Positions 3,236-22,509 of a stretch of 64,000 nucleotides of DNA are shown here, piece by piece; position 1 is the stretch's first letter, and each line of letters begins with the position of its first letter. This stretch comes from Geothrix sp. SG200 (GTDB taxonomy: Bacteria; Acidobacteriota; Holophagae; Holophagales; Holophagaceae): NCBI RefSeq assembly GCF_022808935.1, contig NZ_JAKZFR010000004.1, positions 124,001 through 188,000 of the forward strand, read 5' to 3'. The notes beneath the pieces are model-generated. The model was not told the origin of the DNA. It searched no databases and saw only the letters and a program-made list of their open reading frames with translations. A program made the position numbers and the translations under genes.

Positions 3236-3318
3236 TCAGTCTTCAGTCCTCAGTCTAAAAGCAACGGCGCCCCGCCGGGGCGCCGCGCTGAGGACTGAAG
3301 ACTGAGGACTGAGGACTA
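3236..3318. repeat. Inverted pair of CTGAGGA heptamer arrays
   Basis: TCAGTCTTCAGTCCTCAG at 3236-3253 is the exact reverse complement of 3288-3305 (18 of 18). The right arm continues with further heptamer units to 3318 and supplies the TAG stop of the gene at 3316-3780. The left arm extends to 3221-3230, where it supplies the ThiF-like gene's ribosome-binding site. A GC-rich hairpin sits inside the loop. Single-arm relatives lie at 21040-21070 and 26373-26400. Confidence 0.85.
3256..3285 (-). terminator. Hairpin terminator of the gene at 3316-3780
   Basis: CGGCGCCCC (3265-3273) pairs with GGGGCGCCG (3277-3285) around a 3-base loop. Read on the minus strand it is followed by TTGCTTTT, as in an intrinsic terminator. 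It separates the DUF-type gene from the ThiF-like gene. Confidence 0.55.
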
Positions 3319-19905: not shown

Positions 19906-19970
19906 ATGGCTTGTGAGGGGCGCCGGGCCCATGTTCCCCTGGAAGGTCGCAGGATTGCAGGAGGCAGGTG

Positions 19971-21038
19971 ATGTCGGATAGCCACAAGGATTCCCTGGTC
20001 GCCGTCGTGATGGCCGGGGGGCGGGGAACCCGGTTCTGGCCCCGCAGCCGCAACGCCCGCCCCAAGCAGTTCCTGGCCATCGTGGGCACGGAGACGCTGC
20101 TCCACCAGACCGTGCGCCGCCTGGACGGCCATGTGGCTCCCGAGCGCATCTTCGTGGTGACCACGGAGGACCTGGCGGCCGAGACGCGCCGCATGCTGCC
20201 GGAACTGCCGCCGGAGAACGTGATCGTGGAGCCCGAGGGCCGCAACACCGCGCCCTGCCTGGCCCTGGCCCTGGTTCAGATCGAGCGGAAGGTGCCCCAT
20301 GGCGTCATGGCCGTGCTGTCGGCGGACCACTGGATCGGCGATCGGGAGCTCTTCCTGGAGGACCTGGAGACGGCCGTGAAGCACGCCGCCTGGGAGCACG
20401 AGCTGGTCACTTTCGGCATCAGGCCCACGTACCCGGAGACGGGCTACGGCTACATCGAATCCGAGGGCCACGGTCCCGTGCAGAAGGTGGTGGCCTTCCG
20501 CGAGAAGCCGCCGGTGGAGGTGGCGGTCCAGTACCTCGAATCCGGCCGGCACTACTGGAACGCGGGCATGTTCGTGTGGACCCTGGCCGATTTCCGCGAG
20601 GGTCTGGCGAAGCATGCGCCGGAAGTACTGAAGCCCCTGGACGCCTGGGTGGCGGCGGGCGCGGACCCCGCGGCCCTCGGCGCCGCCTACCGCCAGCTGC
20701 CCAAGGTGGCCATCGACGTGGCCCTCATGGAGAAGGCCGAGACGGTGGCGGTGGTACCCACCCGCTTCCGCTGGTCCGACGTGGGTTCCTGGCCCGCCGC
20801 CATCGAGTTCCAGGAAACAGATCCTGAAGGCAACGTGAGCCAGGGCGAGACCCTGCTCCTGGACACCCGCAACAGCGCCTTCTTCGGGGGCAAGCGCCTC
20901 ATCGCCGCCAGCGGCGTGGACGATCTCATCGTGGTGGACGACGACGACGCCCTCCTCATCTGCCACCGCGACCGCGCCCAGACCGTCAAGCAGATCGTCG
21001 AGCGCCTCAAGGCCGAAGGCCGCGAGGATCTGCTCTAA
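19971..21038 (+). CDS. manC: Mannose-1-phosphate guanylyltransferase
   Basis: 355 residues from ATG 19971 (an in-frame GTG at 19968 is adjacent), with GCAGGAGGC upstream. The signature GGRGTRFWPRSR lies at residue 15, followed by PKQFLAI. FREKP and a WNAGMFVW motif appear near residues 170 and 190. Makes GDP-mannose from mannose 1-phosphate and GTP for cell-surface polysaccharides. This is the short form without the fused isomerase domain; the isomerase function is probably supplied by the separate cupin gene at 21434. Confidence 0.93.
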   Translation: MSDSHKDSLVAVVMAGGRGTRFWPRSRNARPKQFLAIVGTETLLHQTVRRLDGHVAPERIFVVTTEDLAAETRRMLPELPPENVIVEPEGRNTAPCLALALVQIERKVPHGVMAVLSADHWIGDRELFLEDLETAVKHAAWEHELVTFGIRPTYPETGYGYIESEGHGPVQKVVAFREKPPVEVAVQYLESGRHYWNAGMFVWTLADFREGLAKHAPEVLKPLDAWVAAGADPAALGAAYRQLPKVAIDVALMEKAETVAVVPTRFRWSDVGSWPAAIEFQETDPEGNVSQGETLLLDTRNSAFFGGKRLIAASGVDDLIVVDDDDALLICHRDRAQTVKQIVERLKAEGREDLL

Positions 21039-21039
21039 G

Positions 21040-21070
21040 CTGAGGACTGAGGACTGAGGACTGAGGACTG
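21040..21070 (+). repeat. CTGAGGA heptamer array (4 units)
   Basis: Four perfect tandem CTGAGGA units (21040-21067) begin 2 bases after the manC stop and end with CTGACC just before the ATG at 21074. Single-arm relative of the array at 3236-3318. Confidence 0.9.
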
Positions 21071-21475
21071 ACCATGCAGCGACCTGACACCCTCCACGTG
21101 GACAAGCCCTGGGGACGGGGCCCCGTCCGCGAACCCAGAGGGTGAGCGGGAGCACGCCACGGGCGTGGCGTGCGATCCGGGGGTAGTCCCGGAGCCCCCC
21201 GCGAGGCGAGCCGAGCGGTGATGATGAACGAACCCTTCCAGCGAGCAGAGACCATGCAGCGACCTGACACCCTCCACGTTGACAAGCCATGGGGACGGGG
21301 CCCCGTCCGCGAACCCCGAGGGTGAGCGGGAGCACGCCACGGGCGTGGCGTGCAATCCGGGGGTAGTCCCGGAGCCCCCCGCGAGGCGAGCCGAGCGGTG
21401 ATGATGAACGAACCTTTCCAGCGAGCAGAGACCATGCAGCGACCTGACACCCTCCACGTGGACAAGCCCTGGGGC
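21071..21475 (+). repeat. 180-bp tandem repeat, 2.25 copies, overlapping the start of the cupin gene
   Basis: Copies at 21071-21250 and 21251-21430 differ at only a handful of positions. A third, 45-base partial copy (21431-21475) is the real 5' end of the cupin gene. Each full unit is 45 bases of gene start (ACCATGCAG onward) plus a 135-base insert with three hairpins: 21113-21128, 21153-21172 and 21176-21193 in copy 1. Each unit encodes a 23-codon reading frame that begins with the same first 14 residues as the cupin (first ends at TGA 21143). The 395-base gap between manC and the cupin holds only this and the heptamer array. Confidence 0.93.
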
Positions 21476-21793
21476 TCCTTCGACCAGTACGCCCTCAACA
21501 CGCCCTGTACGGTGAAGATCCTCACCTGCAACCCGGGCCAGAAGCTGAGCCTGCAGCGGCACGCGCACCGCGGCGAGCTGTGGGTGGCCCTGGATCCGGG
21601 CGTCGTGGTGGATCGCGATGGCGCGGAGCTGCGCCCCACCGTGGGCGAGGAGATCTGGCTGCCCCAGGGCAGCACCCACCGCCTGCGCTGCGATGCTGGC
21701 GCCCTCCATCCGGTGCGTGTGCTGGAGGTGAGCCTCGGCACCTTCGACGAGGCGGACATCGAGCGGCTCCAGGACGACTACGGGCGCCGCTGA
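21434..21793 (+). CDS. Cupin-type mannose-6-phosphate isomerase-like protein
   Basis: 119 residues. Single cupin domain like the C-terminal isomerase half of bifunctional ManC/AlgA proteins: HVDKPWGSFDQY at the start, SLQRHAHRGELW and GVVVDRDG (first cupin motif), and EIWLPQGSTHRLR (second motif) with the metal-binding His. Converts fructose 6-phosphate to mannose 6-phosphate, which fits the manC gene upstream. The first 45 bases recur twice upstream as part of a tandem repeat. Stop and next start overlap (TGATG). The catalytic role is inferred from homology; some relatives act on other phosphosugars. Confidence 0.85.
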   Translation: MQRPDTLHVDKPWGSFDQYALNTPCTVKILTCNPGQKLSLQRHAHRGELWVALDPGVVVDRDGAELRPTVGEEIWLPQGSTHRLRCDAGALHPVRVLEVSLGTFDEADIERLQDDYGRR

Positions 21794-22509
21794 TGCGGAC
21801 GTCCCTGCTCTTCGCCGCGGCCCTGCTCTTCGCCGCGGCCCTGCCTGTCCCGGCCCAGAGCCCCGCTCCGGAGGGCGGGGAGATCCTCGGCCGGGTGGAC
21901 CGCCTGCGCCACCCCTGGCCCGCCTTCACGGTGGAGCTCGCCATGAAGGCGCCGGGTGTGGCCCAGCGGTGGAAGGTGTCGGCCCGCGAGAACGGCGACG
22001 CCCGGCTGGACGGGCTCTCCGAGAAGGAGAAAGGCCGCGCCGTGCTGCTCCTGGGTGACGAGATGTGGCTGCTGCTGCCCGGCACGAAGCGGCCGGTGAA
22101 GGTCTCGCCCCAGCAGCGCCTCTTGGGCCCCGCCGCGGGCGGGGATGTGGCCCGCACACGGTTCCGCGACGACTACGCCGTGCGGGAGGTGACGGAAGCG
22201 TCCCTGGAGGACCGGGCCTGCTGGCGGCTGGACCTGGCGGCCAAGCGGCCGGCGCTCAGCGCCCGCCAGGTCATCCTCTGGGTGGCCAAGGAGGGGTCGC
22301 TGCCCCTGAAGGCAGAGTTCCGGCTGGCCTCCGGGCGCCTGGCCCGCACCGCTCGTTTCGGCCCGCCGGTCCAGGCCCATGGGCAGTCCGTACTGTCGCG
22401 CCTCGAGATCGAAGAGGCCGGTGGCGGCAAGGCGGAGCTGGCCTTCACGAACTGGACCCGGGGCGGTGTGGCGCCGGGGGCCTTTGACGTCCCGGGCGCC
22501 AGGCGGTGA
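21793..22509 (+). CDS. Outer-membrane lipoprotein-sorting (LolA-like) protein
   Basis: 238 residues from ATG 21793, overlapping the cupin stop. The N-terminal signal peptide is LLFAAALLFAAALPVPAQ, in which a short segment repeats. The mature part resembles the LolA-like 'outer membrane lipoprotein-sorting protein' family. It shows the pattern MWLLLPGTKRPVKVSPQQRL, then a DYAVREV-type strand and the beta-sheet DRACWRLDLAAK. Probably carries hydrophobic groups across the periplasm, possibly as part of an RND-type export system. Likely cotranscribed with manC and the cupin. Confidence 0.78.
   Translation: MRTSLLFAAALLFAAALPVPAQSPAPEGGEILGRVDRLRHPWPAFTVELAMKAPGVAQRWKVSARENGDARLDGLSEKEKGRAVLLLGDEMWLLLPGTKRPVKVSPQQRLLGPAAGGDVARTRFRDDYAVREVTEASLEDRACWRLDLAAKRPALSARQVILWVAKEGSLPLKAEFRLASGRLARTARFGPPVQAHGQSVLSRLEIEEAGGGKAELAFTNWTRGGVAPGAFDVPGARR

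Follow-up and report, generated by a model that had tools for sequence, protein, structure and literature searches.

Mobile open reading frames (ORFs) of fungal mitochondria, which are homing-endonuclease genes, bring a foreign gene terminus to the gene they enter, as described for atp6 in Allomyces and for atp6, atp9, cox2 and nad3 in Glomus (PMC3630166). In a 64,000-nucleotide stretch of the Geothrix sp. SG200 genome (contig NZ_JAKZFR010000004.1, positions 124,001 to 188,000; hereafter the window), a tandem repeat at the start of a manA-like cupin gene holds an element that resembles them in three respects. Like the mobile ORFs (PMC3630166), the Geothrix element is inserted near a gene end, supplies a replacement terminus with mostly synonymous differences and leaves the native terminus as an orphan. 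On the evidence below we interpret it as a mobile RNA with homing-like behaviour, which swaps the ends of genes and possibly recognizes its site by base pairing, a reading to which we give a probability of about 0.5.

Organization of the element and its insertion sites

The preliminary description of the window proposed that a structured element had entered close to the start of the gene, leaving the downstream gene whole, and the present analysis supports this proposal. A search of the insert against its own genome (G000) found similar inserts with the same pattern at recR, sodB, an FtsX-type permease gene, queE and other genes. In nearly all copies the parts come in one order: an orphan gene terminus (U), a core, a tail, an intact terminus (D) and the gene body. 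The unit is placed at a single position (X|Y) a few tens of nucleotides into the gene, in some 30 conserved genes; clustering of the gene bodies gave 38 groups, and 33 after tandem duplicates were dropped. A direct repeat ends at the 5' edge of the core in 93% of 89 copies at a score of at least 30, compared with 1.5% of 409 control positions taken from the same loci; at a score of 36 the values are 92% and 0.24%. The length of this terminus repeat varies from about 28 to 200 nucleotides (nt). Since the insertion point lies inside the gene and the gene must survive, no special mechanism is needed to explain why D is the intact side.

Sites at 5' gene ends include queE, miaB, uvrA and genes encoding a thioesterase, an alpha/beta hydrolase, biotin carboxylase and RNase HII. 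Sites at 3' gene ends include recR, sodB, mutL, metK and genes encoding a 2-oxoacid dehydrogenase acyltransferase, PepQ, YebC, MlaE and a phage-integrase-family recombinase, among others. The target genes have no common function. In G137, from another genus of Holophagaceae, the core lies in a tRNA-Thr gene whose end is duplicated exactly (34/34; L224). Tandem units are present at several loci. Two variations were also observed: in recR of G000 (L048) the stop codon of the working gene is a new one from the tail (...RRPL*), while the orphan keeps ...RRPIG*, and at the manA-like site of G034 (L045) the core is duplicated head to tail within one unit, with no second gene start.

The window itself contains two units (all features on the + strand). 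The tandem repeat at 21070-21474 has a period of 180, 2.2 copies and 96% matches; as the preliminary description had noted, two units of 180 bp, followed by the gene start in a third copy of 45 nt, lie between manC and the cupin gene. The repeated gene part, GACCATG...CCCTGGGG, is 45 nt long and occurs as direct repeats at 21070-21114, 21250-21294 and 21430-21474, and the remainder of each unit is 135 nt, with no long ORF of its own. In each unit the 45-nt gene start is followed by a 75-nt core (ACGGGGCCCC...GGGGGTAGTCC); the tail comes next, with GGAGCCCC, and then the second hairpin and the leader. The first gene-start copy (21070..21114), with its ATG at 21074, is the orphan U; it is broken inside codon 14 (GG|C), not after that codon as originally described. 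Core copy 1 (21115..21189) matches the covariance model R1 introduced below (C5:145111-145191, 99.2 bits) and has the three-way-junction structure inferred from covariation. The tail segment GGAGCCCC (21191..21198) is, by comparison of tail and target, the reverse complement of the uninterrupted target GGGG|CTCC. The second hairpin and an element-type leader (AACGAACC[C/T]TTCCAGCGAGC) before the next ATG (21199..21249) are common to filled sites of other species and absent at most empty sites. The second gene-start copy (21250..21294) is both the downstream copy of unit 1 and the orphan copy of unit 2. It is followed by core copy 2 (21295..21369; R1 match C5:145291-145371, 95.3 bits), its tail segment (21371..21378) and its second hairpin and leader (21379..21429), assigned from the tandem repeat and the same tail-target and filled-site comparisons. 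The third, functional copy (D, 21430..21474) begins the intact manA-like gene (21434..21793), which encodes 119 amino acids and matches the mannose-6-phosphate isomerase C-terminal family PF01050. Genomes with its relatives are those of Geothrix and other Holophagaceae.

The two units differ within the 23-codon frame at GTG/GTT, CCC/CCA and AGA/CGA, all three synonymous, in agreement with the earlier claim that every in-frame difference is silent; CCC/CCT, which had been counted among them, sits outside the frame in the leader before the next ATG. A further G/A difference falls in the core.

Outside the element, a manC-like gene (19968..21038) forms the upstream flank. CTGAGGA heptamer repeats occur at window positions 21040-21071 and 3288-3317, and a perfect 18-bp repeat (2.3 copies, 21803-21844) lies near the start of the next gene.

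The repeat might be taken for a 45-base target duplication, as first proposed, and more generally for the product of ordinary transposition. On that account a non-autonomous core moved, the terminus repeat is a long, variable target-site duplication, and selection kept the insertions that left a gene intact. In about 83 of the 89 copies the direct repeats lie immediately next to the core, U equals D exactly at several sites, and an intact D would follow from selection alone because most DNA is coding. Against this account, terminal inverted repeats of known insertion sequences (IS) are lacking, the downstream leader is unlike the upstream leader, and in G004 D is foreign and U of native type (see below). 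A copy in nuoL, a conserved complex I subunit gene, also speaks against it: in G029 (L198:1486-1567) a 75-nt core lies in mid-gene between CACCAC and GAGCAG, in frame, adding 25 codons with no duplication, and the two flanks are contiguous, and thus empty, in the relatives examined. In G014 (L191:1463-1547) a core likewise reads through in frame in an ORF6N-domain gene, again with no duplication seen. A simple target duplication thus describes the element poorly, in view of both nuoL and G004, where the downstream copy is shared with another species, and we consider ordinary transposition rather improbable. Because a clean in-frame nuoL copy exists, the core alone can insert; in the common case the inserted unit comprises core, tail and terminus.

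Structure and distribution of the core

Folding of a single copy was not significant (z score about -1.5), and structure emerged only from the alignment of many copies. Fourteen copies aligned with MAFFT, before any model was built, gave a consensus three-way junction with compensatory changes. The model R1 was used for genome searches. In the genome that holds the window, 32 matches were found at E values up to 1, and 24 of them under 0.001 in a stricter search. Matches occur in 46 of the 47 genomes compared of Geothrix, a soil bacterium, in two other genera of the same family and, in small number, in another family of the phylum. The core is 75-90 nt long across the family. A region of G000 (C6:133-156 kb; L256, L257) also contains several weak, related three-way-junction repeats of the type GGCTCCA...GAGTGGGAGCCACGC...GCGTGG, intergenic between ordinary genes, which are perhaps a second family or decayed copies.

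The structure is paired in 93.8% of pair cells over 92 distinct copies, compared with 37-48% for slid partners, and double changes number 466 against 148 in shuffles. This alignment was fitted to the model, and the 14-sequence alignment made before the model gives the same answer. There are 148 G.U cells and 9 A.C cells, or 61 and 9 when one invariant U.G pair is left out. Because G.U cells far outnumber A.C cells, the selected strand is the one that runs from the orphan copy to the intact gene, and this strand appears to act as RNA, less likely as single-stranded DNA. No Rfam family matched at gathering scores, and three matches at E 5-7 are at chance level. The core structure is firm enough to count as a new RNA family, independently of the mechanism.

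A conserved RNA structure and a tail complementary to nearby coding sequence might also indicate a host regulatory device: core and tail would fold as a hairpin about the end of the gene in the mRNA, with control over translation or over RNA stability, and at 5' sites the orphan frames would serve as leader peptides. This explanation has very little probability in our judgment: at 3' sites the strand with the G.U pairs is antisense to the gene, presence is patchy among close relatives at the same gene, and the target genes share no function. The leader-peptide role suggested in the preliminary description is not supported, because many sites lie at 3' gene ends, where the element is antisense to the gene and the orphan has no such frame.

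Presence and transfer among Geothrix genomes

Comparison of the manC-cupin junction in relatives revealed both empty and filled sites. Most relatives have an empty site with a plain manC-gene junction, and filled junctions occur in seven other Geothrix genomes (G003, G004, G009, G010, G034, G041 and G046), of which G041 also has two tandem units. Because the same junction recurs in these seven genomes, an assembly artefact, which the preliminary description had named as a way for its interpretation to fail, is unlikely. In many Geothrix species the leader of the manA-like gene is built of variable CTGAGGACTGA repeats. Filled sites have the element-type leader in common, and their upstream leader is of the CTGAGGACTGA type of the empty relatives.

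The comparison of G046 and G004 resolves the unit best. Between them the core is 99% identical, the leader 97% and D 100%, compared with 88% for the flank, 88% for the gene body and 78% for U, and identity shifts at the U/core junction and a few bases past X in D. The upstream copy of G004 is of native type (ATGGATAAACCGACC...), and another species shares its leader, core and downstream copy at 97-100% identity. These identity breaks indicate that the unit moves between species together with its own replacement gene start.

Over all sites with a clear frame, U and D differ synonymously at 114 codons and non-synonymously at 24; changes made at random would be synonymous in about 23% of cases. 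For 3' ends, whose orphan is not translatable as that protein, the numbers were 70 and 17. U and D thus differ mostly at synonymous codons, and both copies therefore belonged to a working gene until recently. By analogy with the fungal mitochondrial mobile ORFs, this bias fits replacement by a foreign terminus.

Complementarity between the tail and the target site

The tail holds, directly after GGGGGTAGTC at most sites, the uninterrupted site in inverted form: the reverse complement of Y first, then the reverse complement of X. The inverted match is 19 nt long at miaB, 23 at a helicase gene and 8 at the manA-like gene. For the 33 independent sites the score of a tail against its own target was 7.56, compared with 5.48 against the targets of other sites (permutation p 5e-5, the floor of the test), and the direct orientation gave no signal (5.8 compared with 5.5). 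Coverage by matches peaks from -3 to +4 around the insertion point, and 13 of the 33 tails score higher with their own target than with that of any other site. Within sites, the own target won 66 comparisons with the target of a sister species and lost 30, comparisons that are not independent of each other. The sequence preference at the target itself is weak (A at -3, 0.4 bit). These comparisons show complementarity across X|Y.

The order X, core, inverted Y-X and return upstream is also the expected product of a foldback template switch, and this favours the main rival to a homing-like mobile RNA. According to this explanation, microhomology-mediated template switching copied in the structured core on rare occasions; a single switch, to the opposite strand and then back upstream, gave rise to the inverted tail and the repeated terminus as side effects; only events with an intact gene survived, and spread was passive, by descent and homologous recombination. 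The duplicated lengths, which vary from about 28 to 200 nt, and the frequent identity of U and D within one genome agree with it. It has more difficulty with more than 30 independent sites that share the same architecture and core, one fixed left edge and a structure covarying at the RNA level, and with the sharp-edged transfer of the block from core to D. We regard a replication scar of this kind as a serious but minority possibility.

Search for associated enzymes

Across the 47 genus genomes, Y1 transposase was found in 5, and in neither G000 nor the 41 others; IS110-type transposase in 7, not including G000; TnpB (PF07282) in 6, also not including G000; and the reverse transcriptase family RVT_1 in 15. 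RVT_1 is absent from G007, G014, G017 and G032, which are assembled in one or two contigs. Among IS families the search covered Y1 and IS110 and no others. No element match was found in plasmids, in phages or in a pattern scan of IMG/VR. For three copies with no nearby repeat, a search over 16 kb turned up no partner copy farther away, the sign expected of a longer, autonomous insert. The open-licence literature searched contained no description of the family.

Discussion

If the element is a homing-like mobile RNA, its core would be transcribed, and the tail, whose sequence can pair with the unbroken target across X|Y, may recognize empty alleles by base pairing. A host or element protein acting in trans would then cut or join the DNA at X|Y, and the unit would spread by homing between related genomes. 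The old terminus stays behind as the orphan and the gene is rebuilt by the terminus on the 3' side of the insert; the carried terminus would render the insertion harmless. Recombination between the two terminus copies could lead to precise loss or tandem gain, and because each unit recreates X|Y, extra units can stack. The most detailed form of this model, a bare structured RNA with a 3' guide that finds its site in a conserved gene by pairing, is inserted by a protein and rescues the host gene with the replacement end, we propose only tentatively, as somewhat doubtful.

Several observations weigh against homing guided by pairing. At about one third of the sites the tail match is no better than chance, and the complementary stretches are in many cases imperfect and just 7-10 nt long. 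A guided nuclease might also cut D, in which the target is still intact. The sharp-edged transfer is resolved at one site only; the clear foreign D is that of G004/G046, and at uvrA neither U nor D is certainly foreign. U and D resemble each other more closely inside one genome than across species at several sites; this favours conversion between them, or a new duplication, over homing. None of the nuclease, reverse transcriptase or transposase families searched tracks the element across the 47 genomes.

If the proposed reading is correct, the element represents a class of bacterial selfish elements that is hidden in conserved genes by swapping gene ends, has no ORF and perhaps finds its targets through nucleic-acid pairing. 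Holophagaceae would then be expected to have an insertion enzyme yet to be found, and the element would provide a natural example of target-plus-rescue homing, an analogue of rescue-type homing drive, and account for puzzling partial gene duplications beside conserved genes.

Comparison with known systems

The small, mobile, RNA-structured element has no Rfam family and is previously undescribed in the open-licence literature searched. Group I and group II introns were rejected, as the region has no Rfam intron match even at E up to 10, and a mobile group II intron in particular, as RVT_1 is present in only 15 of the 47 genomes. For repetitive extragenic palindromes and their associated tyrosine transposases (REP/RAYT), Y1_Tnp is absent in 42 of the 47 genomes and GTAG is not conserved at the core end, where GTTG, GTGG and GGCG occur. 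An IS-derived miniature inverted-repeat transposable element (MITE) with a fixed short target duplication does not agree with a repeat of 28 to ~200 nt that is missing in nuoL, and for a TnpB system PF07282 is not present in G000.

Rickettsia palindromic elements and MITE-like palindromic repeats of bacteria are likewise short, structured, dispersed and non-coding, and some Rickettsia-type copies lie in frame in protein genes, as the Geothrix element does in nuoL. The Geothrix core, however, is a branched, covarying RNA and not a simple palindrome, and terminus replacement or a target-complementary tail is not known for these palindromic elements. The TnpB omega-RNA of IS200/IS605 is a structured RNA too, and its 3' segment likewise corresponds to the target of its own element (PMC8612924, PMC10278001); in the Geothrix element, however, the segment is inverted and spans the insertion point, no IS ends were found, and TnpB is present in only 6 of the 47 genomes. 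The tail resembles the internal guide sequence of a group I intron: it can pair with the sequence on either side of the insertion point and has the reverse complement of the 3' side first, then that of the 5' side. Unlike such an intron, the element has no catalytic core and can lie antisense to the gene. The mobile ORFs carry an endonuclease ORF, and the Geothrix insert (~135 nt) has none and contains a structured RNA core of 75-90 nt instead; the mobile-ORF cases described replace C-termini, whereas the Geothrix element uses both gene ends and does so on a bacterial chromosome. Overall, the element fails the tests made for features of MITEs, of REP/RAYT, of TnpB systems and of introns, and it works like the terminus-replacing mobile ORFs without the ORF that defines them.
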